A stretch of DNA of 64,000 nucleotides from Cymodocea nodosa. Lineage: Eukaryota > Streptophyta > Magnoliopsida > Alismatales > Cymodoceaceae. The position numbers were made by a program, and so were the translations under genes. Location: contig CM072345.1 in the NCBI GenBank assembly GCA_036874045.1, positions 79,501 to 143,500 of the forward strand, given 5' to 3'. Shown one piece after another: positions 4,561 to 29,355 of the stretch; position 1 is the first letter of the stretch, and each line of letters begins with the position of its first letter. The notes beneath the pieces were generated by a model. The model was not told the DNA's origin and made no database searches. It saw only the letters and a program-made list of their open reading frames with translations.

Positions 4561-6873
4561 GCAAAGTGGTTAGAAGTCCGGTGACGTGGTCGAAAGTTGC
4601 GATTCTGCATTCGAGGGTTAGGTTCTCACATGTGGAAGTCTAGGTTTGACCTGGGGGCCCTAGTTCGGCCCCGATCATCTTCTTCGTCTCTAGGGAAGGT
4701 TTGGGTCTCTAGGGTTCAACCGAGGTCGTCATGCTACGACTTGTACTGGAGTCGGTGGGCGAGATGACAGCCATGGGTTCATCCGTAATGGTTGTTGACC
4801 CTCCAACCGTGCCAGTGGAAAAAGTGCAGGTACCTGGGTCGGAGGAGGCCTTGCTGTTGTCTCCTAATACGACTACTAAGGAAGGTATCATCAACGGAAG
4901 CAGGTATTTGTTTAGATGGTGGAGTCTTTGGAGGATTTGTTTAGTGATTGTCGTGACCATTTTTGTTGGATTGGTAGTAGAGATGGCACCATCACTACGG
5001 CTTATGCTTGGGATATTATTAGGAAACGTGCCCCCTATGTGTTGTGGAACGGCCCCCTTTGGAAGTATTACATTCCCTCTAAGATATCATTTTTCTTATG
5101 GAAATATTTTTGTGGGATCCTTCCGTTTGATGATCTCCGTCAAACTAGGGGAGTGGAGTTAGCTTCTATATGCCCTTGTTGTCATTGGACTCATGATGTT
5201 GACTCCGTCAATCATGTCTTCTTTGAAGGTGAATGGGCGATCTGTTTCCGGTACTGGGTGGGTGCTATCCTTGGTATTAATCTTCCTAGTGCTAGGAGTT
5301 GGAAAGACTAGGTTCTTAAGGTAATCTAGTATAATGGGAAGGAACAAACTAAACGAAGGATCAAGTTTATTGCTAGTTATATTCTCTAGGAATTATGGAA
5401 AGCCTATTGCAAAGTCAAAATTTTGGGAGCTACCCATTCTTTCAATATCATTCGGAGGAATATTGCTCATGAGATCACTTCCTTTGAAGCCAACTGGGGG
5501 GGAATTGGTCTAGGCCGCCCAAGTGAGTGGCTTGGACTAAACCACCCATTAGTTATATTAAGATGAACACTGATGGCATGATTGCTTGGAATGGTCACTA
5601 TGCTGGCGAGGTGGTGATATGTGATCATAATGGGGAGCTTGTGGTGGCTCATTGCACACCCTTGGGCGAGGGTAATGCCTTAGTTGCGGAAATTCAAGCG
5701 CTTGCTGCTGGTTTCCGTCTTCTTCTTGATTTGTAGTTGGAATTGGGGCACACTTTGGTTGAGGTTGATGCACATGCCTTGGAGGCTGCGATTAACTCAA
5801 GTGTGTGTCCTACTTTTGTTGTCTTGACGCTTTGGTAGTCGATTCTTGTTATGTCTCTATAGGTGGCGGATATTTCTTAGGTACCCCGTTCTACTAATTC
5901 TATGGCTGATTCTCTAGCCTCCTTGAGTAAGACTGGACTGTGTAGTGTGTGGCAGGATGTTGGGAGCACCCCCCCCCAGTGCTGTCAGAAGCTCCTACTT
6001 GATTGCTAGGGGCTACCTACCATCCCACCTATAAGAGACAGGATGGGTTGAGTGGAGATCTCACATGCTGTTGGCACTTAGGTTTGTTCTCGAAACTTTT
6101 CCCTCCTTCCTTATTCTTCTACTCAGATACATGAGGTGGGAGTTCTATTTTGGAGAGTTGATTGAGTGTTCCACCTTGTTCACGCCTTATGTCAAGGCAC
6201 CAAGATGACAGCTGACAGGTATGACTTTTCTTTACCCTATTCCCTTCTTCCACCAGAGTAGAGACTATTAGTGAGGTAAGAGGTTTCTCTAGAGCTTTGT
6301 GAGTGGAGAGCTTTTACCAGTTCCACCTTGTTCAACCATGGATGGTTCATAGGTTTGTATTTGTTTCTTACATTTCTCTCCCTTCTCACTTCTTGGTGAG
6401 GTGAGTGCCACTTCTTGAGTGCTTCCACCATGTTCTTTTGAAGATCTATGACATGCTGTCGGTCATCCTTGGTGTTTTCCACTATTAACCAAGTGGAGAA
6501 CATTCCTTACTAGTTCGCAACTTGAGGTTTCCTTGGCTTTGGAGATGTTGATCATTTTCTTTGCCGAACGAAGACCTACTTCATGACGTAGACATCCTTA
6601 GCAGACTTCGGTGTGAGCCTCTCTACTTGAGAGTCAGTTCTTGCTACCTCCTGGGTGTGTTACCTGTTACAGCACATACTTCTTGAGCTGGTATGCTGAT
6701 GGATGCCTAGATAGTTTTGTTCACATTGGTTGTACATGTTCTTTTATTTTCAGATTCTTATGAGGTTGTCCTTTTCTTTTGGAGTTTGTGGTTGTATCAG
6801 GGCCAAGGCCCCACCTGTTGTACTTTCAATTTGTTATTAGGAATAAAATAACAGTTTAAAAAAAAAAAAAAAA
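4561..6873 (+). mobile_element. LINE remnant, RNase H-bearing lineage, internally deleted
   Basis: A plus-strand L1-clade LINE that has lost most of its interior. About 4660-4915 is ORF1-like, low-complexity and stop-containing. At about 4916-5311 it jumps to the zf-RVT zinc-binding region, with WNGPLWKYYIPSKISFFLWK and CPCCHWTHD. About 5527-5935 is a plant LINE RNase H domain (RVT_3), with IKMNTDG, GEGNALVAEIQAL and a late STNSMADSLASL. A long 3' region follows, with AATAAAA at about 6842 and an A-tract at 6858-6873. Unlike the four LINEs downstream, this lineage has RNase H, so it is a separate family. The A-tract runs straight into telomere-like repeats. Confidence 0.85.
4916..5935 (+). 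pseudogene. LINE ORF2 C-terminus: zf-RVT and RNase H domains
   Basis: The first block is a 131-codon ORF (4916-5311) with the aromatic-rich FFLWK motif and Cys pairs typical of the zf-RVT domain after a LINE reverse transcriptase. It ends SARSWKD and a stop, but recognisable sequence continues through several stops to the RNase H block at 5527-5736. That block starts TKPPISYIKMNTDG, with the first catalytic Asp in NTDG and a Glu in AEIQAL. The later Asp-containing segment (EVDAHALEAAI) lies after a stop at about 5734. It cannot encode a working enzyme. Confidence 0.85.
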
Positions 6874-6912
6874 CCTAAGCACTAAACCCTAAACCCTAAC
6901 CCTAAACTCTAA
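6874..6912 (+). repeat. Telomere-like CCCTAAA stretch 1
   Basis: About five imperfect units of CCCTAAA/CCCTAA directly follow the poly(A) of the upstream LINE and end at the first base of a 5S-SINE copy. The array is short and interstitial, not a chromosome end. Confidence 0.85.
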
Positions 6913-7262
6913 AGTGCATTTACACCTACTACCAAGCATTGACTCTTATAAGAACTTTGGAGTTAAATATGTTTAGGTGAGAGTAGAACTAAGATGGGTG
7001 ACCACTTGGGAAGTTCTCGTGTAGCCCCTATGGGCAGTAGTGTTAGCTCTGCTCAAGCATTGGCAAGCTGTAGCTGTGTGCATCACTTACGAAAGTGGGC
7101 CTAGTAAGGCCCCTTACAAGCTTTCGTCTCCTTGGATACTCCTAGTGTATACCAGGCTATTTGAGTGTCCATGAAGGTTCACCTTCTACCACCTCTAAGG
7201 ATATTCCTCGTGTTCACCAGGCTATTTGAGTGTCTAAGGAGGACCCTTATAATAAAAAAAAA
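6913..7262 (+). mobile_element. 5S rRNA-derived SINE, copy 1
   Basis: The first 110 or so bases align by eye along the whole length of plant 5S rRNA. The internal promoter region is clear: GGAGTTAA at the box A position, GAGAGTAG in the intermediate element, and GATGGGTGACC plus GGGAAGTTCTCGTG at the box C end. An unrelated body follows (starts ATGGGCAGTAGTGTTAGCTC; ends TTGAGTGTCTAAGGAGGA), then an A-rich tail at about 7252-7262. The segment ACCAGGCTATTTGAGTGTC occurs twice, so this copy has an internal duplication. It is flanked on both sides by CCCTAAA-type repeats. The 5S head with an unrelated body and A-tail argues for a SINE, not a 5S gene; transcription is not shown. Confidence 0.8.
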
Positions 7263-7276
7263 CCCTAAACCCTAAA
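7263..7276 (+). repeat. Telomere-like CCCTAAA stretch 2
   Basis: Two CCCTAAA units directly follow the A-tail of 5S-SINE copy 1. Confidence 0.75.
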
Positions 7277-8880
7277 CAACATATGGCTAGGATACAACTA
7301 ATAACTCGTTGTTCAAACTTTAATTTTGCCCATTTTTAATGAATTTTATAAGTAATTGTGCATGATATTATCTATCTATGGTGGATAAATGATATTAATT
7401 ATGGGCAATATAGGTCTTGAAATATAGTGCAATATAGAAATTTAATTAACAAGTGCATCCCCATTAGATATAATTTTCATATAACTCATTGATTTTATTT
7501 TAAATGTCCTATCCTATGTTGGCTAACATCTCTTGGAGTTCAATTTCCATTAATTATAGGTAACACACATGTGGAAGGAGCTTATTGCAAAAGACAAAAA
7601 GAAGATGTAAATAATCAAAGTTGGTGGACTAAACTTTAAAGAAGTGGACATGCCAACACCTCATTGGCTCCCTTAGATCTATGGATTCTCATTGGAGGGT
7701 GATACATTATTCGATGTTGGAAGTTGGTGGAACATGCGAGAGAAGCACGCACGAGAGACGTACGCGCGGCCGAGAATCTGTTCGCTCAGTGATATCCGCC
7801 TGGTGGAGAGAATTATTTAAGGGCGAAGGAAATATTGCGAAAGGGACATATACGCGACCGAGAGTTCGGTGTCTGGGAAATACGCGCGCGAGAGGTGGAG
7901 ACGCAGCTGAGCATCCGAGCACTCTTGTAGGAGTGAAAGCTCTTCCCAAGCTCCCTAGTAAAGCTCCATTGTGCAAGTTCCTCTACTACAGATTTTCAGA
8001 GCTCACCAAGGTAGTGACAACCCTTGGAAAGTTTGTTTTCTTGTAGTAGAGGAAAGCTAGAAGAGTTTGGTAGAGATACACTTCTTGTTTATGATGTCTT
8101 AGTAGGATTAAATGTGTGTTCAAGTTTAATTACTGCATTGTTCTCTTAATTTCAGTTTACATTCACTTGATTCACTGGGACCATACATAGGGCTTCCACA
8201 AGAGTGGTCGACACCTATGTATGGTATACTTGGCACATATGAATGTGAAGTGTTGATTAAAGGAGAAGAAGAGGAGTTTAAGAACTTGGAAGTATATTGT
8301 GTTAAATTTCTTCTTAATGAAGAACCTCTCATTTACCTTAGTTGTTAATTTTAATTTTAGTAGTTAGCTTAATTTGTTATATCTTATATTGATCACATTT
8401 TGTTCAAATCAATCTCCAAAAAGAATTTCTAATGCAAGTAGTATAGTATAGTTTAGCTAGATTAGCAAATAGCATAGTTGCATGCATTTAGTATAAATTA
8501 GAATAGAGTAGCATAGCCTATTGAATCTTCGTATTTTATTTTTCTTTCCTCAATTTTTATGCATTGATATAACTTCTGAAATCACGTGGAACTTGTGTGC
8601 ATGTTATAATTGAATGGGTTGATAGATTTACAAGTAAAGAAATTGATTCACATCACCATTTTCCACTACACATTGCCTTGAAACTGCATGATTTGTGAGC
8701 TTATGTTAATTTTGATTATTCTACATTCACATGTCATTAATTTACTGAAGTATAGCTAAGAGCTTGAAGAACAAGTTGAGTAATAATTGATTAAGTCATA
8801 AACACAATCCTTGTGGAAGAATGACCTGTAATTGCCATGTACACCAAAGGAACTGTGCACTTGCAGCAAAGCTTGAGCTA
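7277..8880 (+). mobile_element. Probable LTR-retrotransposon LTR remnant
   Basis: No gene is recognised; the 121-codon ORF at 7681-8046 has no known domain. The end of the stretch has the layout of the 3' portion of many gypsy LTRs: a GTGGAAGAATGACCTGTAATTG-like segment, then ACTGTGCACTTGCAG at about 8850-8868. A similar ending (GACCTGTAGTTGCACAC, then TGTACACTTGCA) occurs in the Athila-type LTR at 44.7 kb. The middle is locally CpG-rich (7740-7900), unlike the surroundings. Calling it an LTR is an inference from layout; neither boundary is fixed. Confidence 0.4.
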
Positions 8881-8889
8881 AAAATATAG

Positions 8890-11800
8890 CTCAACACTCG
8901 CTACAAGATATTTCGCGAGAAATGACAATCCTAGAAACATCCCATCTACATACTCTACAGATTCTTAGAGAAAAGTTAAACAATATCTCTAACATATCAA
9001 GCTCGAACGAAGAGTCTTCCTATTCTGATAAATAAAGGTCAGAGTCAGAAGATACAGCTCCAATACAGATGATCAACACACATCAATTATCCAAAAGACA
9101 AAGCACACGTCTTAGACAAAAAAAGATTAAATTCAAAAATGACATAGAGTCTTCTCAAAGTGTTAAGTCTTACTTCGCAATAAGCAGCCTCCTTTCGTCA
9201 GAATTTATCATGAATTTATTATTTTGGAACTACCGAGGGTTGGTCAATAGACCAACTCAAAATTACATCGAAAGTCTCATTCAAAAGCATAATTTAAAGG
9301 AAATCTTTATTCTTGAACATATGTTGTTGGACAATGCTCAGAAATTTGCAGGTAATATTAATTGGAATTACCATTATGATAATTCAAGGATTATAGCCTT
9401 TTGGTCAGACAATTTGGATATTACACCATGGGAAACTCATATGCAAGCTATCACTTATAAAGTTATGAATACTCAATATGCTAATCTATTTATTTCGACT
9501 ATTTATGCTTCCTACAATCAGAAGACTCGTCGTCAATTATAGGAGCACTTATATGATATCAGTGTTCGGTTGGATAATAGTCCTTGGATACTAGGTGGCG
9601 ATTTCAATGTCACTCGAAATCAAGATGAAATTCAAAATATAAAGCATATGCATACTTTAGCTGTTCAAGAATTCAATGAATTTATTCATCAATCCCAACT
9701 CATGGAACCTATGCATATCAGAGATATATACTCTTGGTGCAATAATCGATCTAGTCATGATCGAAAATATGCAAGATTGGATAGAATTCTAATGAATCCT
9801 TCTTTATTTGAGCATTTCAAGCAAGAGATTATGTATGGCTAGCGTATCCATTTTGATCATGCGTATATAAGTATCCTGCAGAGTAACCATAGATCTAGAA
9901 GACCAAGCTCGTTCAAATTCAAAAATATTTGGTTAACCTATGAGGATATCAATCCGCTTGTCAAGTTATCTAGAATAGTCTTCATTATCAAAATTCGATT
10001 TCCAATTTTAGTGCCAAGCTCAAAATACTCAGAGTCACCCTTAATAGATGGAACAAAAACAAAGTCGGAAACATTTTCTTTGAAGAACTGTTTATCATGA
10101 GCGAGATGCAATCTATTGAGCAAGATTTTCAGAAAAATCCTTCCTCTTGCACAATGGAAAATAATGCTATTCTGCACAATCTGAAAGAAAAATTGGCAAA
10201 AAATAAAAGTCGTCAATTTAGTTTCTTGAAGCAAACAACTCATATTAATTGGTTGACAGATATGAATCGAAACACCAAATTTTTCCATTAGATAATCAAC
10301 CGCAGGAATACCAAAGATTACTTCAAAAGTATGATCAGAAATAATACAAATATGGATACCCTAGAAGATCTGGAAACAAAAGGTAAAGAGTATTTTTCAG
10401 CACTACTTCAAACTCAAACAACCACTATGGATCAAAATCTACTAGAGAATATCCCCTTAAAGTTGAAGGAAAATCATAACAAAAAATTATGGGCAATCCC
10501 TCCAATCACGAAAATTAAAGAAACACTTTACTTTCTTCTAAAAAATAAAGCTTCAGGGCCATATGGTTTTACAACAGAATTTTACACTCATTTCTGGGAT
10601 ATAATTGACACAGATATTTGCATAACTATTCAGACTTTCTTTTCCGACTACAATTTAAACAACAAATGGAAAGCTACATATATATCTCTCATCCCTAAAA
10701 GAAAACAACCTTTCACTTTTTCTGATTTTCGCCTGATTAGTTTATGCAATGTTTCTTACAAAATTATTGCTAGCAGAATTGCAGAAGTAATGCCAAAACT
10801 TATTTCTAATACTCAAGCAACTTTCATCAAGGAAAGAAGTATATTTGACAATATATCTCTAACACAAGAATTAGTTCAATTCATAGACCAAGGACATCGA
10901 GGTGGCAATCTCATTGTAAAGCTTGAAATGGAAAAAGCCTTTGATAGAATGGAATGGTCAACTATTTTTCAAATCCTCAAAGCTTTCGGTTTTGACTCCA
11001 AAATTATAAATATTATTAGCAATTGCATCTCCAACAATCCTACTGCAGTTCTCATCAAGGGAGCTCCTTCTCAAACTTTTTATCCCTCTTGAGGACTGAG
11101 ACAAGGAGATCCTCTTTCACCATTACTATTTATTTTGACTAAAGAATTGCTTTGTAGGGCACTTTTAAAGATTCAAAATGAGCTAGATTATGTCCCATAT
11201 AAATGTCAAAGTAGGCATTGGCGGATTTCACACCTAATTTATGCAGATGATGCACTCTTATTCTTAAATGGAAGGAAATCTATGCTTCAAAAAGTTATGC
11301 AAATATTAAAGAATTATGAAAGATCTACAGGTCAAACAATCAATTTCAACAAAAGTAATTTCTTTGTCTTTAAGAAAAGTCCTATGCATCACATTAAATT
11401 CATGGAGGATTTTCTCAATTGTAAACAGAGCAATTGGCCATTCATTTACTTAGGTTGTCCTATCTTCAAAGGACAACCTAAATTAAGATATTTCCAACAC
11501 ATCATTGATAAGATTCAGAATAAAATGGTAGTATGGAAGGCTAAATTTCTCAGTCAAGGAGGCAGATTAATGCTTATAAAGCATGTTATCAATTCTATTC
11601 CTATACATACCATATCAGTTATTCCCCTTCCCTATGGTATTATCAACCAAATTAACTCCATCTGTGCAAGATTTTTCTGGTCAGGAACCAACTCTAGGAA
11701 AAATTTCCACTAGTTATCCTAGAACAAAATCACTAGACCAATCGTGGAAGAGGGTCTAGATATCAGAAACTTGAGAGATCAATTGATGGCCTTTCGATTA

Positions 11801-13239
11801 AAACAAATCAGCAAAATATTGGAAAACAAAGGTATTTGGGTAGAAGCCATCATCGCCATATATGGTTCTATGGAACAGATAACAGGAAATTACAAAAAAC
11901 ACAACATTGGGAAAACTCTGAACAAATGTTGGCATAGATTCAAACACCAATTTCAAATACAAGGCAATCTCAACAGTCAATGTTTTTCTATCAAAGTTGC
12001 TTGGAACTCGGTAAGAATTCACCATCAGCAAAATAAACAACTTCTTGGGTGTTGGACACATCAAATCCCCACTAAGATATCTATATTCATATGGAAACTA
12101 CATAGCAATATTATTTCAGTGGACAATATTTACACTCACATGGGATATTATCTTCCTTCTATTTGTGGGTTTTGTCATAACTCCATAGAAACAATTCAAC
12201 ATATTTTTTGCCTATATAACTTGAATATCGTCAAATGGTTGAATTATTTACTCAATCCAAAAACTATTATAGATTGGAAAGACTAGAGCAGACAAAAAAT
12301 TTATTCCAAGAAAAATTCTTCTCAAATGAAATATCACAAATATCTTGCAATAGTATCTTTATGGAGCATATGGAAATACAGATGCGAAATATTATTTCAT
12401 AATACTCAACCAAGCATTTCTGCTTCCATATCTCGGATAATCCATTTTATTCGAAATTTTAATGCGACTAGTGAAATTAAATAATCTCATATTTTTGGGG
12501 AACAGATATATTCTCTCCTCAACTCAGAAAGTCTCTGGATTCATTGGGATAGAGCGTCTCGATAGACGCTTCCCTTTAGGCTCGATCATCGAGGCATCTA
12601 GCACAGACCGATACAACCAGTCTGACACCTGAATTTTCTTCAGCAGCACCATATCCTTCCTAGATTCTTCAGTATAACCAAATTAACTCGGTCACATCAA
12701 GTCTCTGATCGTCTACAGCTTCGAGGACTGCACGCTGCCTGACAATTACTAGAGGTTGCTTTCAACTCTGACTTTTTGTCAGAATTTTTGTTCAATCAAA
12801 TCGATATTCAACTCGGCTTAACCGAAACTCCTCTTTGGTCTAACCAAACTTCAGTCACGATCTCACCGATTACTAACAGTAGTTATTTTATTCAGTTTAA
12901 CCGTTCCACTACGGTATTACCAAATCTTGTTATAGCAGTTTTTTGGTTCGACCGTTATGGATATTCGGTTAGTTCGAAACTGATTTTTGGCGGTTAGACT
13001 GGTAATTTCTCCGATTGAACCGAGATTGAGGTGGGACAAGTCTTCTTCGGTGGAACCAATCTACATCAGCCGGATCTTCCTTGGTAGAACCAAGCTGGTC
13101 TGAAGGCTATCATTTATATCCAACAAATACTTGAGACTTGTATCTTTTGTTTCCAACCAAATTATATTTGGTTTTTTCAAATATTTACAGGACTATCCCT
13201 TGATGAATTTAAAGGATAGAATTTTAAAAAAAAAACCTC
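8890..13239 (+). mobile_element. LINE family A, copy 1 (5'-truncated)
   Basis: An L1-clade plant LINE. It starts within the tail of ORF1 (about 8890-9190), carries an almost complete ORF2 (9210-12484), and has a 3' region of about 740 bases with repeated CGGTT/AACCG palindromic words. The 3' end reads GATGAATTTAAAGGATAGAA, then an A-tract that joins CCTCTAAACCC. All family A copies share this end. The reading frame has at least five in-frame stops, so the copy is inactive as it stands. Confidence 0.9.
9210..12484 (+). pseudogene. LINE ORF2 (endonuclease, reverse transcriptase, zf-RVT), copy 1
   Basis: The ORF opens with the endonuclease/exonuclease/phosphatase fold (NLLFWNYRGLVN, then WILGGDFNVTRN, and a degenerate HFDHA). 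The reverse transcriptase core has NKASGPYGFTTEF, ISLIPKRKQP, FIKERSIFDNISL, VKLEMEKAFDRMEW, GLRQGDPLSPLLF and the catalytic YADD at 11240-11251. A zf-RVT block follows (FIWKLHSNI; CGFCHNSIETIQHIF). There is no RNase H domain; ORF2 ends soon after zf-RVT. In-frame stops lie near 9540, 9841, 11090, 11711 and 12284, so the protein is broken, although nearly all motifs remain legible. Confidence 0.93.
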
Positions 13240-13260
13240 TAAACCCTAAACCTAAATCCT
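13240..13260 (+). repeat. Telomere-like CCCTAAA stretch 3
   Basis: Roughly three degenerate CCCTAAA units lie between the A-tract of LINE copy 1 and the start of 5S-SINE copy 2. Confidence 0.8.
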
Positions 13261-13544
13261 AGGTGCATTTACACCTACTACCAAGCACTGACTCCTGTAA
13301 GAACTTTAGAGTTAACTATATTTGGGCGGGAGTAAAACCAAGATGGGTGGCCGCTTGGGAAGTTCTCGTGCAATGCCTATGGGCAGTAGTGTTGGCTTTG
13401 CTGAAGCGTTGGCAAGTCGTAGGTGTGTGCACCGCTTACCTAACTCATGTGCCAACATTGCAAGCTTTGCCTTAGTAATCTCAATAAAGTTGGTGTTCAC
13501 CAAGTTGTTTTAGTGTCTAAGGAGGATCATTTGAAAAAAAAAAA
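13261..13544 (+). mobile_element. 5S rRNA-derived SINE, copy 2
   Basis: It starts GGTGCATTTACACC, matching the 5S head of copy 1, with TTTGGGCGGGAGTAAAACCAA and GATGGGTGGCC in the promoter region and CTTGGGAAGTTCTCGTG at the end of the 5S part. It is shorter than copy 3 because the middle of the body is missing; the end GTGTCTAAGGAGGATCATTTG is shared, followed by 11 A. It is flanked by telomere-like repeats on both sides. Confidence 0.82.
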
Positions 13545-13559
13545 CCTAAACCCTAACCT
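13545..13559 (+). repeat. Telomere-like CCCTAAA stretch 4
   Basis: Two units (CCTAAACCCTAACCTA) separate two 5S-SINE copies lying head to tail. Confidence 0.8.
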
Positions 13560-13980
13560 AGGTGCATTTACACCTACTACTAAGCACTGACTTTTGTAAG
13601 AACTCTAGAGTTAACTATGTTTGCGCGGGAGTAAAATCAAGATGGGTGACCACTTGGGAAGTTCTCTTATAGTGCTTATAGGTAGTAGTGTTGGTTTTGC
13701 TTAAACATTGGTAAGTCATAGGTGTGTGCACCACCTACCTAACTCATGTGCCAACATTGCAAGTTTTGCTTCAATTATTAATCTCAATTAAGTTGGTGGA
13801 TGGGGCCACTTAGGATACCCCCAACTAGTTGAGAATCTCTACAAGACAAAGTGCATGATACTTGGAAAATCTATCATGTTGGGACTTAGCAAGGCCTCCT
13901 ACAAGCTTTCGCCTACTGTATACTCCTAGTGTATACCAAGCTATTTGAGTGTCTAAGGAGGATCATTTGAAAAAAAAAAA
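13560..13980 (+). mobile_element. 5S rRNA-derived SINE, copy 3 (longest)
   Basis: This is the fullest copy, about 420 bases. It has a 5S-like head (13560-13675), a shared body, an extra segment containing GGATGGGGCCACTTAGGATA and CAAGGCCTCCTACAAGC, then the common end GTGTCTAAGGAGGATCATTTG and an A-tail at 13970-13980. The tail joins TCTAACCCTAACC. It is the best choice as reference for the family. By eye the 5S portion is diverged from functional 5S rRNA throughout, including positions normally paired, so it is not a 5S gene. Confidence 0.82.
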
Positions 13981-13993
13981 TCTAACCCTAACC
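13981..13993 (+). repeat. Telomere-like CCCTAAA stretch 5
   Basis: Two units lie between the A-tail of SINE copy 3 and a minimal LINE 3' end. Confidence 0.75.
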
Positions 13994-14036
13994 TTGATGA
14001 ATTTAAATGATAGAATTATTAAAATAAATAAAAAAA
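13994..14036 (+). mobile_element. Minimal 5'-truncated LINE family A 3' end
   Basis: This 43-base piece reads TTGATGAATTTAAATGATAG, then ATTATTAAAATA and an A-tract. That is the terminal sequence of the family A LINEs (compare 13201-13239, 19672-19711, 23629-23659 and 29282-29333). Telomere-like repeats flank it on both sides, so it looks like a separate, extremely 5'-truncated insertion. Confidence 0.75.
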
Positions 14037-14049
14037 TCCTAAACCCAAA
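14037..14049 (+). repeat. Telomere-like CCCTAAA stretch 6
   Basis: TCCTAAACCCAAAA lies between the minimal LINE end and the 5' end of LINE copy 2. Confidence 0.65.
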
Positions 14050-14136
14050 ATCATTTCTTCCCTCCACTTTCTCTCTCTAACTAGAGTTTCTCTCTCTAGG
14101 TGATTTTGGCCTCTCTCCTCTATTGTTGGTGCTCTC

Positions 14137-15665
14137 ATGGCAAAATCTCCACCACTCGACCCTAAAGAGCACTTAGGAGATCCCCCTCCTTTTGTCAATC
14201 CCAATGCTTGGCAAAAGGATTCGCCAAAACTCTCTTTTACTACTACAATCTGCGAACACTTTGTTCCTCCCTCCTTTCCATAGATTCCTGTGAGAGATCC
14301 TATCATGGTGGAAGGCCAACTATGGGTTTCACTTTCCAAAGAAGAAATCTCAAACTTGGCTTCTCCTATTCAATACACTTTAGTTGGAAGATTTGCAGGT
14401 CAACGACCTAACATACAATCCATTCTTGAAGGCATAAAAGCAACTCTCAATATTTCTAATGGAGTATTTCCTGTCACATTGGACAATCGGTATGTTCTCT
14501 TACGTTTTCAAAATCATAATCATTTTTTAAAGCTCTAGTTAAGGATAATTGGAGCATCAAGGGGAGAAGAATGTCTATTTTTCGATGGTCTCCATCATTC
14601 TCACCTAGAATGGAAGCCATTTGGGCCCTAGTTTGGGTACATTTACCTCATCTTCAAGCACATCTTCATGCTTCGAGAGCCATCAAATCCATCACCAAAC
14701 TCCTTGGCAAATATCTCTGTGCTCATCAAGATGTTTGTAACTTCACAAGGCCAAGGCTTGCAGTAGTTTGCGTGGAGATGGATTTATCGAAACCTCTTCC
14801 ATGAACCATCACCATAGATAATGAGGGTGAAATTATCATTCAAAAAGTTCTTTACCCGTTTGAACCAAAATTCTGCACACATTGCTGCAAAATTGGACAC
14901 ACGGCTCAACAATGTAGAAAGAAGGCTGCACCTGACAAAGCTGGCCCGTCAACAAAGTAGAAAAACATGGAACCCAACAACAGTTCTTGGCAGGTGGTCT
15001 CTCAGAAAGGCAAAAACTCTTCAGAGGCTCTCCCAAAAATCCTTGAGACTGGTCAAAAAGTGCGGATAGCATAGATGGAACCAGGTATAGACATTCCTTT
15101 GAAAATTGTTGCAACATCAGTACCTGCAACGGTAGAAGATGCTATCAGACACGTAATTGCTATTTACGGTGTAGAAGCATCGGAGAAGGCAATGGTAGCT
15201 CCGTCGAAGGAACTATTAGACACGCAACTGTTGATAGCAGTGCAGACCGAAGACATGCAACTGCTGCTAGCGATGTAAATCGAAGACACGCAACCGCTGC
15301 TAGTAGTGCAGCAGATGCACAGGTAGATACAAACCGAAGACCAAGTCCTCGATTCTTTAAATTTGAATAAGGTTCAACCGGATCTTTCAACGATTAAACC
15401 GAGCCTAGAGTCTTTTCAAAATCTTTCTTTACAGATTTTAAAAGGAAAATTAGAGAGAAAACATATCGAATCAAACTTGGATGAAGAATCTTCATATTCG
15501 AAGAAGCATATGTCTGACTCAGCAAATAAGGAAGCTGCTATTCTAATGTAGAAAATCAATCCAAATCGTTTGTCCAAAAGACAGAGTACACAACTCAGAC
15601 AGAAAAAATTACAGCTCATACATGATACTGAGTCCTCACAGAGTGTCAGTCTTACATCTTTGTAA
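14137..15665 (+). pseudogene. LINE ORF1 (DUF4283 and CCHC zinc knuckle), copy 2
   Basis: It starts MAKSPPLDPKEH. After a stop at about 14281 the DUF4283 nucleic-acid-binding region continues: MVEGQLWVSLSKEEI, YTLVGRFAGQRP, NRYVLLRFQNHNHFLK. After a frame change comes the Trp/Pro block with WALVWVHLPHLQAHL. A CCHC knuckle sits at about 14869-14915 (CTHCCKIGHTAQQC). The C-terminal part is low-complexity and holds repeated CGGTT/AACCG-related words. It ends with a SSQSVSLTSL-type tail that copies 1 and 4 share. In L1-clade LINEs this protein binds the element RNA. The frame is broken at several places. Confidence 0.85.
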
Positions 15666-15692
15666 GATTGGAGCAACTTTGAATCAGTAAGA

Positions 15693-18600: not shown

Positions 18601-18716
18601 GTATATGGAATCACAAGTGTGATATTATTTTCCATAACAGTCAGCCAAATATTTTCGCTATAATAGGGAGAATTACCCATTTTATACAACTATTCAAAGT
18701 ATCTAAAAGAGAATAG
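15693..18716 (+). pseudogene. LINE ORF2 (endonuclease, reverse transcriptase, zf-RVT), copy 2
   Basis: It opens MDILFWNCR and follows the copy 1 order. The endonuclease part (15693-16150) is stop-rich and partly deleted. The reverse transcriptase is best preserved at 16906-17379 (IPKRKQPANFAKFRPISLCN; VKLDMEKAFDRMN; GLRQGDPLSPFLFIL). The catalytic motif has decayed from FADD to FANN at about 17473-17484, removing both Asp. The zf-RVT region lies at about 18240-18560 and the ORF ends at 18716. No RNase H domain is present. Confidence 0.9.
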
Positions 18717-19711: not shown

Positions 19712-19796
19712 TCCTAAACCCTAAACCCTAACCCTAAATCATAAAACCCTAAACGCTAACCCTAACCCTAAACCTTAAACCCTAAACACAAACTCA
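19712..19796 (+). repeat. Telomere-like CCCTAAA stretch 7 (longest)
   Basis: About 12 units of CCCTAAA, CCCTAA and close variants in about 85 bases. It lies between the A-tract of LINE copy 2 and the 5' leader of LINE copy 3. Confidence 0.88.
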
Positions 19797-20149
19797 TTTC
19801 TTCCCTCCACTTTCTCTCTCTAACCTGAGTTTCTCTCTCTAGGTGATTTACCTCATCTTCAGGCACATCTTCCTCATCTTCCTCATCTATTAAACTTTTA
19901 TTAATTATTACTCCAACTCTATTCCTAACTTTATCTATTAAACTTTGGGCCCCAGTTTGGGTACATTTACCTCATCTTCGAGCACATCTTCATGCTCCGG
20001 GCACCATCAAATCTACTGCCAAACTCCTTGGCAAATATCTCTGGGCTTATCGGGATGTTTGTAATTTCACAAGACTAGGGCTTGCAGCAATATGCGTGGA
20101 GATGGACTTGTCAAAACCTCTTCCATGAACCATCACCATAGATAATAGA

Positions 20150-20692
20150 GGTGAAATTATCATTCAAAAAGTTCTTTACCCGTTCGAACCAAAATTCTGC
20201 ACACATTGCTACAAAATTGGACACACTGCTCAACAATGCAAAAGGAAGGCTACATCTGACAAAACTAGCTCGTCAACAAAGCAGAAAAATACGGAGCCCA
20301 ACAATAGTTCATGGCAGGTGGTCTCTCGAAAAGGCAAAAATTCTTCAAAGGCTCTCCCAAAAATCCTTGAGACTGGTCAAAAAGTGCGGAAATCACAGAT
20401 GGAACCAGGTATAGATATTCCTCTAAAAACTGGAGAAACATTAGTACTTGCAGCGGTCGAAGATGTTGTCAGACACGCAACTGTTGTTAGCGATGCAAAA
20501 GAACCGGAGAAGGCGGTGGAAGTTCCGCCAAAGAAATTGTTAGACACGCAACCATTGTTAACGGTGCAACCGACGCACAAGCAGCTACAAAGCGATGACC
20601 AAGACCTCGATTCTTTAAATACAAACAAGGTTCAACCAAATCTTTCAATGGTTAAACCGAGCATAGAGTCTTTTCAAAATCTTTCTTTATAG
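20150..20692 (+). pseudogene. LINE ORF1 C-terminal half, copy 3
   Basis: It contains the CCHC knuckle and a Ser/Lys-rich stretch (QVVSRKGKNSSKALPKIL), then low-complexity sequence with VQPNLSMVKPSIESFQNLSL. The N-terminal DUF4283 part is absent through deletion. It parallels 14821-15440 of copy 2 closely and is out of frame at several points. Confidence 0.8.
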
Positions 20693-20879
20693 ATTTTAAA
20701 AGGAAAATTAGAGAGAAAACATATCGAATCAAACTCACATGAAGAATCTTCATATTCGAAGAAGCATATGTCTAATTTAGCATAAGAGGAAGTTGTTATT
20801 CCAATGCAAAAAATCAATTCGAATCATTTGTCCAAAAGACAAAGTATGAGGCTTTGACAGAAAAAATTACAGCTCATAC

Positions 20880-21380
20880 AAAAATCATTCAAAGACAAAA
20901 TTAAAGAAAGATCAAACTAAAGGATGGAATACAAATAAGAATCTTCCAATGCAAGAAATCAGAGAAGATAACCAAATTTGAAAAGATAAAATTTTCAATT
21001 TCATAAAATTACCAGCTGAAATTGAACATAAAGCCTATTGGGCATTAAAAACTCTGAACACTAATTTAAATCAAGCTGTTGAAAATAGAAAAATGCAATT
21101 GATTGAATTAAAAGAATTTAGTAATGAAACTTATTCGAAAACTATAAAAGAAAAAGAGAAAATGAAGTTCTTGCATGATAGAAAAATTATTCCAAAAACT
21201 TTTGAAATAGGACAAGAAGTATATCTTTACATAATTTAAAGAGTAAAGAGTGCATTTCTAAATGGTTTAATTAATGAAAAAGTTTATGTAAAACAACCAC
21301 CTGGATTTAAGATATTAAATATCCTGACTATGTGTATAGATTAAAGAAAACCTTATATGGTTAAAATTTTTTTCAAACAA
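20880..21380 (+). mobile_element. Foreign mosaic: gypsy integrase C-terminus fused to copia reverse transcriptase scrap
   Basis: Between two stretches of ordinary LINE sequence lies about 500 bases with two other origins. About 21010-21235 reads as the integrase C-terminal region of a gypsy element (LPAEIEHKAYWALKTLN; KMKFLHDRKII; FEIGQEVYLY). About 21240-21365 reads as a copia reverse transcriptase core (VKSAFLNGLINEKVYVKQPP, then GF). Both are on the plus strand and both are broken. The first 100 bases are unassigned. Such joins fit template switching or repair with filler DNA, which is an inference. Confidence 0.8.
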
Positions 21381-22690
21381 GCTATGTACCTTATAAATGT
21401 CAAAGTAGACATTGGCACATTTCCCACTCGCTATTTGTAGATGATGCTCTTCTATTCCTCAACAATAGGAAATCGATGCTTCAAAAAGTTATAGATATCT
21501 TAAAAAAATATGAAATGTTTACAGGTCAGAAAATAAATTATGAAAAAAGTAATTTCTTTATATCAAAGAAAAGCCCAACGCATTGAATAACTTTTATAAA
21601 AGACACTCTTGGTTGTAAGTAGAGTGATTGTCCTTTCATTTATTTAGGTTGTCCTATTTTTAAAGGACAACCTAGGATAAAATATTTCCAATATCTGATT
21701 GATAAGATATAGAATAAATTGCTAGGTTGGAAAGTAAGATTTCTCAGTTAAGGAGGTAGATTAATGTTGATAAAGCATGTTCTAAATTCTATTCCTATAC
21801 ATACTTTATCTGCTATTTCTCTACCATTGGGTATCATCAACATAATCAATTCTATTTATGCTCAATTCTTTTGGTCTAGTGACAACACCAAAAAGAATTT
21901 TCATTTACTTTCATGGAGCAAAATATCTAGACCTATCATTGAGAATGGACTTGATATTAGAAATATGAGAGATCAAATCATAGCTTTCAGATTAAAGCAA
22001 ATCAAAAAAATTTTAGATAAAACAAGAATTTGGGCTAAAGCCATAAATGCTATATATGGATCGATGGATCAAATAGTAGATGGGTGTAATAGCAACAATA
22101 TTGGCAAAATGTTCAACATTAGCTGGAGAAAATATAAACATTTATTACAGGAAGTAGGTGCTTTATATGGGCAAAATTTTTCGATCAAAATAGATTGGAA
22201 TTCAATGAGAATACATCGTCATCAAAATAAACAACTTCAAGGCATGTGGTCTAATCAGATCCCCACCAAAATATCTATTTTTCTTTGGAAATAAAATAGA
22301 AATATCATTCTAATCGATGATATTTGTATCCGAGTTGGATATCATCTTCCTTCTATTTGTAGATTGTGCAGCAATTCTTCAGAAACAATTCAACACATTT
22401 TTTACGACTACAACTTTGTTCAAGAGTTGGTAAATTGGCTAAATAATCTTCTCAATATTAAATGGATTACCAATTGGAAAGATTGGAGCAAACAAAAAAT
22501 ACGTTCTCAGAAAAAATCCTCTTAGATGAATTTTCTCAAATATTTAGCTACAACTACCTTATGGAGTATATAGAATCATAAGTGTGATTATTTTCCGCAA
22601 CAATCAGCCAAATATTTCCACTGTAATAGGGAGAATTACCCACTTTATACAACTATTCAAAGTATCTGAAGGAGAATAGCAGGATTACTA
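21381..22690 (+). pseudogene. LINE ORF2 C-terminal half, copy 3
   Basis: The reverse transcriptase resumes at SYVPYKCQSRHW, with LFVDDALLFLN where the catalytic FADD should be. Next comes the thumb (GLDIRNMRDQIIAFRLKQIKK) in the best-kept ORF, 21764-22294. A stop follows at about 22292, then a zf-RVT region to about 22690 in broken frame. Confidence 0.88.
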
Positions 22691-23659
22691 GGAATGGAAA
22701 CTGGGATATACTATTACATCGTTAGAAGCTATTCTAACATAGCTACGTTTCTTTCATAGATCATAGAGAACAGATATCGGCGCTTGCTTGGTATCGGCTA
22801 GGCAATAAATATGGGCATTATTTTTCGGTTTTTACCGAAGCACACTTGAAGGACCGAATAGAAATCGAGAAGAATTACTTCAGTAATTTTATCCGGTCAC
22901 ATCGTTGTTATCTTCATGCATACAGAAGACTGTCTTCGGGAAGGGTGCTAAATTCTGAGCACCGCTTTCGGCGACTTGACAATCTATCAAAATTTTACCG
23001 GTCAAATCGAAATTCAACATGGCAAGACCAAAATCCTTTTTTGGTCAAACCAAACTTCAAGCATGGTCTCTCCAATTTTAGTCAACAGGCTTCTTTTTTC
23101 AATTTAACCAAAATCACTACGGTTTTACCAAATCCTATCATAGCAACAATTCGGTAGGACCGTTTTGGATCTTCGGTCAAACCGAAAAAATATGCATTTT
23201 GTTTTGGCAACTCATTAGCAGTCTAATCATAATCTTCTCCAGTTGAACCAAGGATGTCTAACGGAGACATGATCTTCGGTCAAATCGAACTTAGGCTCGG
23301 TCTTACCGATAGTAGCTAGCAGGCTTACTTTTTTCCGGTTTAACCAAAAACTCTATGGTTTTACCAAACCCTGTCATAGCAGAAGTTCGGTATGACCGAT
23401 TTGGAGCTTCAATCAGACCGAAGAATTGATGTTGGTTTGACAGGATTTTCTCCGGTTGATTTTCTGATAGGAACTTCAAATGATGGTTTGACCTGATTCG
23501 TCTTCTGTCAAACCGAGCTTGAATAGAAGGAAAGCTTATTTCCTAGCAATTTCTAGAGAATTGTATCTATTGCTTATCAACCAAATTTTATTTGGTTTTC
23601 AAATATTTGTAGGACTATCTCCTAATGAATTTAAAGGATAGAATTATTAAAAAAAAAAA

Positions 23660-23735
23660 GTCCTAAACCCTAACCCGAAACCTTGAACCATAAACCTTAA
23701 ACCCTAACCCTAAGCCCTAAGTCCTAAACCCTAAG
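23660..23735 (+). repeat. Telomere-like CCCTAAA stretch 8
   Basis: About ten degenerate units (CCCTAAA, CCCTAA, CCTTAAA, CCCTAAG) lie between the A-tract of LINE copy 3 and 5S-SINE copy 4. Confidence 0.85.
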
Positions 23736-24044
23736 TGCATTTACACTTACTACCAAGCACTAGCTCCTATAAGAACACTGGAGTTAACTGTGTTTGGGCG
23801 AGAGCAGAACCAAAATGGGTGACCACTTGGGAAGTTCTCGTGCAATGACTATGGGCAGTAGTGCTAGCTCTGCTTAAGCATTGGCAAGTCGTAGCTGTGT
23901 GCACTACTTACCTAACTCTTGTGCCAATATTGTAAGTTTTGCCTCAGTTAGTAATCTCAACTAAGTTGGTGGATGGGGCCACTTAGGGTATCCCCAACTA
24001 GTTGAAATAAGCTTAAGTGTCTAAGGAGGATCAAAAAATAAAAA
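23736..24044 (+). mobile_element. 5S rRNA-derived SINE, copy 4
   Basis: The head retains GAGTTAACTGTGTTTGGGCG and AATGGGTGACC, then CTTGGGAAGTTCTCGTGCAA. This is the best-kept internal promoter region of the copies, close to plant 5S box A, intermediate element and box C. The body includes GGTGGATGGGGCCACTTAGG and ends GTGTCTAAGGAGGATC before an A-rich tail. Telomere-like repeats flank both sides. Confidence 0.82.
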
Positions 24045-24072
24045 CTCTAAACCCTAAACCTTAACCCTAATC
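24045..24072 (+). repeat. Telomere-like CCCTAAA stretch 9
   Basis: Four units lie between the A-rich tail of SINE copy 4 and the 5' side of LINE copy 4. Confidence 0.8.
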
Positions 24073-24232
24073 ATTTGACCTGTCGGGTTTGCCAAGCCAT
24101 AAACTGATTGACCCGTCGAGCAAAAGCACTACCTCTCAATGGTAAGTGGTTTTCCGTAGAAACAAAAAGAAAAATCAAAACGGGCCATAGTCTTATTACC
24201 AGACCGTACCAGGTACTTCTCAGAAACTTCAA

Positions 24233-25175
24233 TTGGTTCTTTGTACTAGTCCAATCGATATTTCTTCAGTGCAACCAATCATTGGAGCCGACATCTCTTC
24301 GGTGGAACTGATACCGACTAAAAAAGCAATCAAAATTGCTATTGTTGATTTTGACAACCCAGTGGAACTACCTAACAGATTGGTAAAATTGTGTGACAGA
24401 CCGAAGGAGTTGTCTAACGGTTCAAATGGATTGTCTGACATACCGAAGGAAGCATCTAACAATCCACCTACTGGAAAGAATGGTGTGACTGATTCTTTTA
24501 CAGTTTTACCATCTAATGCATCTGACCAAAGGAAGCGGTTGATCGATACTCTTTCGATTTTTCTGTCTGATGCGCCTGATAGCACTCCAATTGAACCAGA
24601 CATTTCTACTATGCAACTGTTTGCCACGTCTACCAAGCTAGCAAATATCAGATCGGTACAACCGACTTCAAAGCTTAATTCGTTAGTTCTGCCAGGAGTC
24701 ATGCACAATGAAGATCTTCATGTTCAATCACAATCTCCGACTAAAATAGAATGGAAGATAGTTTCACGCAATTGCAAAAATAAAACGATCAAGTCCTTGT
24801 CTATACAAGCATAGCCTTGTCAAACGACATCAAGGTCGAAACTTCTAGACACGCCAATTGTCTAAATAGATCCCAAAAAATCTTTCTATGGAAGCATATC
24901 AAAAACAAATCTTACAATAGGAGGAAGATGTTTTACTACATCAATCTTTTCATATTCTCAAAAACAAAATGCAATCCTTTCCGGCGGATACTATTTCAGA
25001 AGACGATTCTTCATCCTCAAATAATCATTTGTCAGATTATGAAAATATTGCAATTGCTAAAGATGTCACCATGAAGAAAGAATCAATAAGACAAAGCACG
25101 CGTCTTCGTCAAAAATGCATTCAATCAGATAAGGAATCTGAATCCTCTCAAAGTATTACTCTTATTCCACAATAA
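24233..25175 (+). pseudogene. LINE ORF1 C-terminal region, copy 4
   Basis: A 193-codon ORF (24233-24814) of low complexity, rich in Pro, Ser and Asp, with repeated SSVEL/SVQP-type phrases that arise from CGGTNNAACCG-like words in the DNA. It corresponds to the tail of ORF1 after the zinc knuckle. The end (TRLRQKCIQ; SSQSITLIPQ) matches the ORF1 tails of copies 1 and 2. The knuckle and DUF4283 domains are absent. Confidence 0.7.
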
Positions 25176-25207
25176 TAATATTAACAAGTCCTCTTTCCAT
25201 TCTTATT

Positions 25208-28200
25208 ATGGATTATATATTTTGGAACTGCCGAAGGTTGGTTAACAAACCAACTCAATTATTTCTTAAAAATCTTATCCAGAAACATAAAGTAGAAGCA
25301 ATTTTTATTTTAGAGCATTTTATGTCCCCAGATGACTCACAAAAATTTGCTGATAGTCTGAATTGGAATCTCCACTATGGTAATTCCAAAATTTGTGTCT
25401 TTTGGTCTGACAATGTTGACATTAAAATATGGGATGCACATCCACAAGTTCTCACTTATCAGGTTATAAATGATCATTATAAAGATCTTTATATTTCAGT
25501 GATTTATGCCTCTTGCAATTAGATTATCAGACGTCAATTATGGCATCATGTAACAGATTTGAATCTCCAACTAGATAAATTCCCTTTAGCTCTTAGGGAG
25601 GGACTTTAATGTTATTCGAAATACCAAGGAAGTAAAGAATATTACTCATATTCACAGTTTGGCCATAAGAGAATTTAACGATCTCATTAATGAGAATCAA
25701 TTCGTGGAGCCTATTCATCTTGGCGATCAGCTCTCTTGGTGTAATAATAGATTAAGTGCTGACTGAAAATATGCTAGATTGGATCGCATTTTGATCAATT
25801 CTACTCTATCCACGGTTTTTGAAGAGAACATCAATTATGGGAATAGAATTCATTCTGATCATGCTTACATTCTCATACAATGTAATAATCGCATCCCTTA
25901 TGGTCCTTGACCCTTCAAATTTAAGAAGATGTGATTGACTTATAAAGATATTCCTGACTTAGTGAATAGAGTATAGAACAGCATTTACTATCAGAATCCT
26001 ATCATCAATTTCAGCTCTAAACTTAAGTTGCTAAAGGATGCCATTAAGAAATGGAATCTCGATAAAGTTGGCAATATTTATGACGAGGAACAAAGAATCT
26101 TGGACAAAATCAATTCCCTAGAGGAGGACTTTTAGAACAATCCTGATCATTGTACTGGAGACAAGGTAGTAGTCCTCCACCATCTCAAAAATGAATTACA
26201 CATCAATAAACATCACCAATTCCTTCCACTCCAACAGTCAACTCATATTAATTGGCTAGCTGAAATGGATAGAAATACCAAGTTCTTCCATCAAATCATA
26301 AAGCGTAGGAACACCAAGGATAGCATCAAATCTATGCTCAAGGATAATCCCAACAAGATCAATATCGATCAACTCAGAAATGAAGGCTAAGACTACTTAT
26401 CCACCATGCTTTCATCCCAATCTTCCCAGATGGATGAAAGATTGTTAGAAAATATCCCTAAAATATTGACTAATGATCACAATTGTCTTTTTAGAGCTAT
26501 TCCTTCTATTACAGAGATCAAGAACATTATTTTTTCTTTTTTCAATAACAAAGCTCCTAGTCCGAATGGATTTACAATAGAATTCTATCAATATTTTTGG
26601 GATATCATTGGAACAAATTTTTGCAAAGCTATACAAGCTTTCTTTGCAGGAATGAAATTAAATAATAAATGGAAAGCCACCTTTATAGCATTGATTCCGA
26701 AAAGCAAGCAGATCAATCAATTTTCTAATTATTGTCCCATCAATTTATGCAATATTTCTTACAAATGCATAACTAAGATATTAGCCAACCGGATTTCAAC
26801 CATTATTCCTTAGCTCATCTCATCTAACCAATCTGCTTTTATTAAAGTATTTATGATAATATTTCTCTCACTCAGGAGCTTCTACAATATATTAATCATG
26901 GCTACAAAGGAGGTAATCTTATTCTCAAGCTAGATATGGAAAAAGCATTCGATATAATGGAATGGCCGGCAATTTTTAATACTCTCCAAGCTTTCGGATT
27001 TGACAACACTATAATTGAGCTTATCGAGGAGTGTATCTCCCAAAATCCTACTTCGGTTATCGTGCATGGAGCACCTTTACATGTCTTTTACCCCACTCAA
27101 GGTTTACACCAAGGTGACCCTCTTTCCCCTTCTTTTTATTATTATCGAGGAACTGCTGTGTAGAGCACTATTAAAAATGCAACAAGATCCAAATTTCATT
27201 CCTTATAAATGTCAAAGTCGACATTGGAAAATCTCACATTTATTATTTGCAGATGACGCCCTTTTATTCCTTAATGGTTGGAAGTCCATGCTAGAAAATC
27301 TTCAGGCAATTTTAAATCTTTATGAGTCTTCTACTAGCCAATGGATAAATTATAATAAAAGTAATTTCATTGTTTCAAAAAGAAGTCTACAACATCAAGT
27401 TCAACAAATCAAAGAAATTCTTAGGTGTCCACAAGGACATTGGCCTTTCATCTACCTTGGATGTCCTATCTTCAAAGGTCAACCTAAACAGAAATTTTTT
27501 CAATACCTGATTGATAAAATTCAAAACAAAATGGTTAGATGAAAAGCACGTTTTCTCAGTCAAGGAGGTAGATTGATGCTTATTAAACATGTCCTTAATT
27601 CTATTCCAATACACACACTTACAGCTATTCCTCTACTATTTGACATCATCAACATAATCAATGCTATTTGTGCTCAATTTTTTTGGTTAGGGATATCTAC
27701 CAACAAAAGAAATACCCATTGGTTTTCTTGGAATAAAATATCGAGACCAGTACTTGAAGGTGGATTGGCCCTTAGAAATATGCAAGATTTAATTACAACT
27801 TTTAAGCTAAAGCAAATCGATACCATCACAAGAAACAAAGGAATCCAGGTGGAGGCGATAATAGCCATTTATGAATCAATGGATCACATAGTAGATCAAT
27901 TCAAAGACAGTAACATTGGAAAAAATTTGGGCATTATTTGGAGGAAATTTAAGCATATTATAATTAACCCAAATGGAGCTATCAACAATAAGTTTTCCAT
28001 TTCTTCTACTTGGAATTCAGTTAGGGAACATCTCCAGCAAAATCTCAATCTTAAAGGTCTCTCATCTAAATGGATCCCCACTAATTTATCTGTCTTCATT
28101 TGGAAATTACAATACAGGATTATCCCCTTAGATGATGTCCACTCGTCAAGAGGAGTCTCTCTTCCTTCCATCTGTTGTTTATGTAAGAATTCTACAAAAA

Positions 28201-28502
28201 CCATCCAACATTTATTCTACGAGTGCCCCATCACACAGCAAGTGGTTCATTGGTTATCTATGTTGATTAATTTTAACATCAATATAAATTGGCAAATATG
28301 GAGTCAACAGAAACTATTTTCTCAAAAAAATTGCATGCAGGCTCAATTTCAAAAATATCTAGTCATCATCTCCCTATGGTCTATCTGGAAGTATCGTTGT
28401 GACATCTTATTTAAATCTCACAAAGTCAAAGTTATGGATATATTATATAGGATCATCCACTATATTCAGATTTTTAATGTTATTCAGCAAAAATCCAAAT
28501 AG
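25208..28502 (+). pseudogene. LINE ORF2 (endonuclease, reverse transcriptase, zf-RVT), copy 4
   Basis: It starts MDYIFWNCRRLVN. The endonuclease runs to about 25900, with a frameshift near 25590 around the GGDFN motif. The reverse transcriptase has NNKAPSPNGFTIEF, LDMEKAFDIMEW, GLHQGDPLSPSF and LLFADDALLFLN, so both catalytic Asp are kept. There is a frameshift at about 27140, stops at about 26390 and 26811, and one at 27539. The C-terminal 309 codons carry the thumb and zf-RVT (CCLCKNSTKTIQHLFYECP) and end at 28502 without RNase H. Confidence 0.93.
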
Positions 28503-29333
28503 TTACATTGATTTTCACGACGAAATACCTTATCCTTTCGTATTCCCTCAGATTCGATGGTTAAACCACACATTGGTTACTCCGCACCTTCTTAGGAAAT
28601 ACCACATATGGAGAAATGACAAGGCAAGTGCGAGCATCGAGGAAATATTCTGCAACACCTGCCTGGGCTACTCCAAAATCTTTCGGTTTGGCATGATTAC
28701 AATGTTGAATTTTCAAAAACAGTGTCGCCTTTCTCTAGTACCTACTTTCGACTCTTTGACATTATGTCAAAGTTTGCGGTCGAATAGCTCTCATTTTTAG
28801 GTTACACTAAAGCCTTGTTCGGTTAGGCTAAATACTGTCATCGGTTAAACCAAATCAAAGTCAAGGTTATACTAGGATCAGTTAGACCTTATTTCCAGAA
28901 TTTAGTTACAAGGGGAAAAATCGGTCTCACTAAACTTGACCAGATCGAACCGCCTCCTTTTCGGTTTGATTGAAATCGTTTTCGGTTGAACTGAAATTCA
29001 ATATAATTGTAACTGTCTATCTGATATTTCGGTCAAATAGGATCTCGAAGGCGGTTTGATCAGAATTTCTTCAATTGAACTGAACTCGGTCAGACCAAAA
29101 ATCAGTCCATCTTTATTTTCGGTTGCACCTATTTTTTTCGACTAAACCAAAAATTATTCTTTTTTCACAAAACTATAGCTCTTTCTGCATCAAATATTTC
29201 CTAGAATATTTGAATATTATATCAACTCCTTGTTAAACCAAATTTCTATTTGGTTATCAACTCTATTTGCAGGACTATCTCTTGATGAATTTAAAGGATA
29301 GAGTTTTATAATAAATAAAAAAACCCTAAACCC

Positions 29334-29355
29334 TAACCCTAAACCCCAAACCTAG
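29334..29355 (+). repeat. Telomere-like CCCTAAA stretch 10
   Basis: About three units (CCCTAAACCCTAACCCTAAA, then CCCCAAACC) lie between the A-tract of LINE copy 4 and 5S-SINE copy 5. Confidence 0.82.

Follow-up and report, generated by a model that had tools for sequence, protein, structure and literature searches.

The stretch of Cymodocea nodosa nuclear DNA analysed here (64,000 nucleotides, positions 79,501 to 143,500 of contig CM072345.1 in assembly GCA_036874045.1; hereafter the window) carries, from 4.9 to 29.6 kb, an array of long interspersed nuclear elements (LINEs) and short interspersed nuclear elements (SINEs) separated by telomere-like repeats of the CCCTAAA type. The array runs head to tail on the plus strand in the order B-T1-S1-T2-U-A1-T3-S2-T4-S3-T5-mini-A-T6-A2-T7-A3-T8-S4-T9-A4-T10-S5. 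In this naming, B is LINE B, A1 to A4 and mini-A belong to LINE A, S1 to S5 are copies of a SINE resembling 5S ribosomal RNA (5S-SINE), T1 to T10 are the telomere-like tracts, and U is the DNA reaching from T2 to A1. The tracts measure 12 to 78 bp each and sum to 330 bp as cut for tract comparison.

Two LINE lineages are present, as had been proposed from a first inspection of this DNA (the original prediction), with lineage B known from a single copy. LINE B occupies 4916 to 6873 including its A-tail, its 5' start lying at 4916 or further left, and matches zf-RVT and PF13456, the latter of which we take to be an RNase H-like family. LINE A has Pfam matches to reverse transcriptase (RT) and zf-RVT, and no RNase H match was found among the LINE A pieces scanned against Pfam. 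LINE copies end in poly(A). A1, with RT and zf-RVT matches, extends to the end of its A-tail from 8901 to 13235, the 5' start being approximate. A2, the longest copy (14050 to 19711), and A4 (24070 to 29323) were delimited by self-comparison, Pfam and alignment; A3 (19790 to 23659; self-comparison, alignment and codon comparison) is rearranged internally, shares the 5' start of A2 and is nearest to it. A4 is probably 5'-truncated, because it has about 1.1 kb ahead of open reading frame 2 (ORF2) compared with 1.6 kb in A2, and its similarity to the A2 ORF1 region sets in only from about 24948. Mini-A (13991 to 14036), recognized by self-comparison and its junctions, consists of approximately 27 bp of terminal LINE A plus an A-tail with a tract on each side.

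The A1 RT, translated with X at stops, was compared with solved structures. The closest match was 8c8j (E 1.2e-34), listed merely as RNA-directed DNA polymerase, followed by LINE-1 ORF2 (E 1.4e-33) and R2 (E 1.4e-11). By this comparison the LINE A RT is L1-like and closest to the L1 ORF2 protein among solved structures. In a separate search, the named matches among 120 of 2356 listed were plant RTs. Near the LINE A 3' ends the motif pair CTATCY...GGATAG occurs at 13190-13220, 19663-19690, 23615-23642 and 29275-29300; in minimum-energy folds a CUAUCY/GGAUAG hairpin forms in A1, A2 and A3, and A4 folds differently. A 3' hairpin common to LINE and SINE was rejected, as none like it appeared in the three SINE ends folded. 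TCGGTT/AACCGA-like motifs are numerous by eye in the LINE A 3' untranslated regions (12780-13090, 19010-19560, 22980-23500 and 28900-29130), and similar motifs were seen by eye in tandem repeats at 34577-34700, 42805-42899 and 56700-56832. The interior of A3 between ORF1 and RT (20890-21370) holds filler that by eye resembles short pieces of gypsy and copia polyproteins.

By Rfam and alignment, the SINE copies consist of a 5S rRNA-like head, a common non-5S body and an A-rich tail, features that identify S1 to S5 as a 5S-derived SINE family. With their A-tails, S1, S2 and S4 occupy 6914 to 7262, 13260 to 13544 and 23735 to 24044; the Rfam 5S gathering score was reached by S4 only (41.8 bits), with S1 and S2, both placed by alignment as well, at 38.0 bits. 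S3, the longest copy (13560 to 13980 with A-tail), was placed by alignment and had no Rfam 5S match at E 0.1, and S5 (29354 to 29560; alignment, and 27.0 bits, below the cut-off) has lost its 3' part at a further LINE fragment, C. Pairwise differences are 0.154 for S2-S4, 0.121 for S2-S5 and 0.156 for S4-S5, and S1 differs from the rest by 22-28%. A 5S-like head, a different body and an A-rich end are also the features of SINE3-type 5S-rRNA-derived SINEs. The examples in the literature examined, including the parts of PMC3747384 and PMC10886601 drawn on here, are animal or fungal, whereas the present one is in a plant; for plants, the same part of PMC10886601 names the long terminal repeat (LTR) element Cassandra instead. 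No plant 5S-SINE was found in titles and abstract beginnings of the open-licence papers listed. The SINE 5' pattern had 0 matches in viral and prokaryote contig collections and an RT piece had no confirmed relative in viral contigs; given the make-up of these collections, both results are silent on plants.

Every element 3' end that can be read in the array, ten of ten, passes from an A-tract directly into CCCTAAA-type repeats on the plus strand. These ends comprise LINE B, the four LINE A copies, mini-A and S1 to S4, and their positions, orientation and tails can be read directly from the DNA. This was the central claim of the original prediction, and the flank scores and one-sided CCCTAAA count given below confirm it. 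The SINE ends it placed at 7262, 13544, 13980 and 24044 are present as A-tail-to-tract junctions, leading into T2 (7263 to 7278, from junction reading and tract comparison, and followed by U), T4 (13545 to 13559), T5 (13981 to 13990, with 2 bases of ambiguity at the junction; taken as 12 bp for the comparison) and T9 (24045 to 24069). Among the predicted LINE ends, 6873, 19711 and 23659 stand as given, entering T1 (6874 to 6913), the 78-bp T7 (19712 to 19789) and the degenerate 75-bp T8 (23660 to 23734). The other three need correction: the A1 A-run stops at 13235 rather than 13239, before T3 (13236 to 13259); the A4 junction is real, but its A-run stops at 29323 and position 29333 falls within T10 (29324 to 29353; 32 bp as cut in the comparison); and the junction at 14036, ahead of T6 (14037 to 14049), belongs to the approximately 46-bp LINE tail of mini-A and not to a full LINE. 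On the other side, 5' ends adjoin a tract in nine of 11 copies (S1-S5, mini-A, A2, A3 and A4), in line with the earlier statement that many 5' ends begin in such repeats.

The association of element 3' ends with CCCTAAA-type repeats is beyond chance. The sequence CCCTAAACCCTAAA, allowing at most 2 mismatches, is matched 23 times in the window, where shuffles predict 0.49; all the matches are on the plus strand and within 6880-29350. Exact CCCTAAA occurs 17 times on the plus strand and 0 times on the minus strand, with 13 of the 17 inside tracts and the other four at 10693, 14160, 26456 and 58340. The window holds 17 perfect A-runs of at least 8 on both strands; seven are element 3' ends, all of which enter CCCTAAA-like DNA, and the remaining ten, one of them at 18039 on the plus strand within the coding part of A2, meet no tract. 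The A-tails of mini-A, S4 and A4 are shorter or interrupted. Scores of the 12-nt 3' flanks (out of 12) are 12 for S1, S2 and A4, 11 for A2 and S4, 10 for B, A1, mini-A and A3, and 8 for S3. A score of at least 10 was thus reached at 9 of 10 ends, compared with 25 of 105,360 background positions (the plus strand outside the block plus the whole minus strand), where no position reached 11; the weakest flank, that of S3, is equalled or bettered at 2,059 background positions.

Repeats at all ten 3' ends would also be expected if they were element termini transcribed with the rest of the element, which the original prediction had named as grounds for its rejection. This is unlikely, because in both LINE lineages and in the 5S-headed SINE the repeats come only after the A-tail, and they also adjoin truncated 5' ends; T2, moreover, leads into U, in which no element was identified. 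Of the explanations weighed here we consider it the least probable.

Alternatively, unequal exchange between tracts might have built the array from a single LINE-SINE unit or a few of them. With codon phase taken from A4, the differences at codon positions 1/2/3 are 0.264/0.208/0.475 for A1-A2, 0.320/0.229/0.539 for A1-A4 and 0.322/0.237/0.519 for A2-A4. The corresponding ratios of third to first and second positions are 2.01, 1.96 and 1.86 (p <=2e-40), and those for A1-A3 and A3-A4 are 2.25 and 1.68. Third-position excess of this kind indicates divergence under coding constraint and not one multiplied unit; the independence of these LINE A lineages is thus read directly from their coding regions, and A1, A2 and A4 are, on sequence comparison, separate insertions from lineages that had been evolving as working elements beforehand. 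Segmental duplication of one unit is therefore ruled out for A1, A2 and A4, and with it multiplication as the origin of the whole block. In contrast, A2-A3 differences are equal over codon positions (0.099/0.101/0.099, p 0.99), and so these copies, which have a common 5' start, may have arisen by duplication in place or by separate insertion from one source, with local duplication probable. Duplication, the second ground for rejection in the original prediction, is thus dismissed for three LINE A copies and likely for this pair. The mini-A tail and tract are 93% like those of A2 over 59 bp, as duplication would also predict, and an end-to-end alignment of T7 and T8 has 62 of 75 columns matching, but this likeness lies within the tract background (0.12 global, 0.20 local) and is not significant as evidence of T7/T8 homology. 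A LINE-tract-SINE unit travelling as one transcript was likewise rejected, because S2, S4 and S5 differ by 12-16% and the neighbouring LINEs A1, A3 and A4 by far more. Multiplication of a few units as the source of the array is accordingly very improbable. With A2 and A3 taken once and S3 and mini-A left out as doubtful, we count seven independent 3' insertions (B, A1, A2/A3, A4, S1, S2 and S4), those of the SINEs presumably so.

The junctions also contain some information on register. Between the A-run and the first TAA lie 2 bases in B, S2 and S3, 3 in S1, mini-A, A2, S4 and A4, and 4 in A1 and A3. Because the A-tail merges with the AAA of the repeat, only 2 of 7 phases could look different; neither was seen, with a chance of (5/7)^10 = 0.035 for all ten ends and (5/7)^7 = 0.095 for the seven independent ones. 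SINE 5' junctions read TA, TAA or TAAA in five of five cases (chance (3/7)^5 = 0.014; both calculations assume uniform phase). The junctions thus give modest support to insertion in or beside TAAA, which would correspond to a G-strand nick near TTT^AGGG.

Our preferred reading, to which we assign a probability of about 0.55, is that L1-type LINEs and the 5S-SINE inserted repeatedly into (CCCTAAA)n DNA at this locus by target priming and left a fossil array. The 5S-rRNA-derived SINE would borrow the LINE machinery, and a LINE endonuclease would nick the G-rich strand at TTT^AGGG. The freed ...TTT-3' end could then pair with the poly(A) tail and prime reverse transcription, and the 5' end would rejoin within or beside the TAAA of a repeat unit, as the junctions read. 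Tracts persist on both sides of an insertion, also on the 5' side of the truncated mini-A and of A4, and therefore later insertions could enter the remnants and produce the observed one-orientation, head-to-tail arrangement in a presumed order of successive events. The array was probably also enlarged by local duplication on at least one occasion (A2/A3). More tentatively, and a little short of even odds, an L1 lineage of angiosperms, together with its 5S-SINE, may be dedicated to telomere-type repeats genome-wide through a TTT^AGGG nick, with an independent origin in land-plant L1.

The DNA U (7279 to 8900, without assigned strand) may represent a chimeric 5' portion of A1. It was rejected as A1 ORF1, since similarity to the A2 ORF1 region is absent before about 8900, and as an LTR insertion, there being no convincing repeat flanking it among 20 of 33 repeat families listed. 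An ORF at 7633-8043 has no Pfam match, and part of U resembles, by eye, a GC-rich exon leading into what looks like the start of an intron. At the other edge, LINE fragment C (29560-30310) contains an RT core and is fused to the truncated S5; its own 3' end is not seen. An ankyrin-PGG open frame of 505 codons lies at 30723-32237 on the minus strand, approximately 1.2 kb from the array, and its protein matches plant proteins with at most 49% identity among 120 of 391 matches listed. To the left, an RVT_1-bearing frame at 2955-4274 on the minus strand is Ty3-type by eye, and to the right, direct repeats at 42580-48471 (77-88%) lie close to copia-type pieces.

The main and serious rival to repeated target-primed insertion holds that the elements attached to an exposed chromosome end. 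In that case the telomeric G-strand 3' end primes on poly(A) RNA with no site-specific nick, telomerase re-caps the end, the cycle repeats and the array later becomes internal. The nick and poly(A) priming put forward in the original prediction fit the nick reported for TRAS1, described below, but priming from an exposed telomere end gives an equal join, and it yields the same orientation and head-to-tail order. The array is now interior and beside the ankyrin-PGG frame, and the rest of the window, beyond the block, lacks any CCCTAAACCCTAAA match at <=2 mismatches, so terminal attachment needs a later fusion or rearrangement. Re-capping also need not place the SINE 5' junctions in one part of the repeat, where they were read. 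On balance we hold terminal attachment to be unlikely. Just behind it in plausibility, and doubtful, is a local hotspot, in which an ordinary L1 endonuclease cut TTT/AGGG in one interstitial tract while the same families use A/T-rich sites elsewhere. The ordinary L1 endonuclease consensus is TTTT/AA, to which TTT/A is near, and the confinement of the evidence to one locus agrees with such a hotspot. Against it, all ten 3' ends fall within approximately 330 bp of tract, and no counter-example was found in the window by self-comparison and A-run lists, which could miss unrelated elements.

Several points weigh against repeated target-primed insertion. All of the evidence comes from one locus, with no copy seen elsewhere; no LINE or SINE 3' ends were recognized outside the block by the same two means, and the window therefore offers no control copies. 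Both array edges are broken, with the 3' part of S5 lost at LINE fragment C, and the 5' ends of LINE B and A1 have no tract, A1 being separated from T2 by the 1.6 kb of U. Lineage B rests on its one copy, and with terminal attachment the two LINE lineages need not share one endonuclease specificity. The endonuclease similarity of LINE A is weak: an Exo_endo_phos match in one A1 piece (E 0.00075, 19.8 bits) falls under the Pfam cut-off of 24.5. The register support is limited by the merging of A-tail and AAA, and with a SINE start at AGGTGC rather than GGTGC, CCT is read at three of the five 5' junctions, whose junction letters are identical. The best flank-pair matches are 16 bp for S1, 14 for S2, 17 for A2, 22 for A4 and 8-11 for S3, mini-A, A3 and S4, and as target-site duplications the true pairs do not outscore shuffled ones (0.27). 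Lastly, mini-A may have come about as a side product of duplication at A2/A3, and we infer the independence of the SINE insertions.

Among the known systems closest to the array is TRAS1 of Bombyx mori, a telomeric LINE whose endonuclease is reported, in the part of PMC7265360 drawn on here, to nick between T and A (TT^AGG), matching in strand and nick step the TTT^AGGG nick suggested here. TRAS1 is an insect, R1-clade element known from work with purified enzyme, whereas the present case involves an L1-like RT, a plant repeat and junctions alone. SART1, also of the R1 clade in B. mori, is likewise a poly(A) LINE in telomeric repeats, but according to the same part of that paper it is oriented the other way, with poly(A) joined to AGG. 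Because poly(A) here joins AAACCC and not AGG, the array would be TRAS-like and not SART-like in action at this locus. We do not assign its elements to the TRAS family, as the RT is nearest to L1 among solved structures in a comparison that R1 sequences lay outside.

In the sections drawn on here, a 2023 survey (PMC10088271) names SART/TRAS, GilM/GilT, Zepp1, MoTeR1, Tx1-1_ACar and Athena as telomere-repeat elements. Its Viridiplantae example, Zepp1, is a LINE in telomeric repeats as here, but its host is the green alga Chlorella vulgaris. Tx1-1_ACar of Anolis also sits in telomeric repeats and, although Tx1 LINEs are assigned to the L1 clade in the part of PMC3747384 consulted, is a vertebrate element and not of the plant L1 lineage. 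No telomere-targeted LINE of land plants was found in the literature search described above for plant 5S-SINEs. Telomere-targeting LINEs are thus already known from a few scattered lineages, and what appears to be new here is a land-plant L1-type case at one locus. If true, a land-plant L1-type LINE and a SINE with a common target would suggest that telomere targeting arises repeatedly. It would also connect LINEs with interstitial telomere-like repeats beside genes, and would make available for testing a plant endonuclease that has a fixed target.

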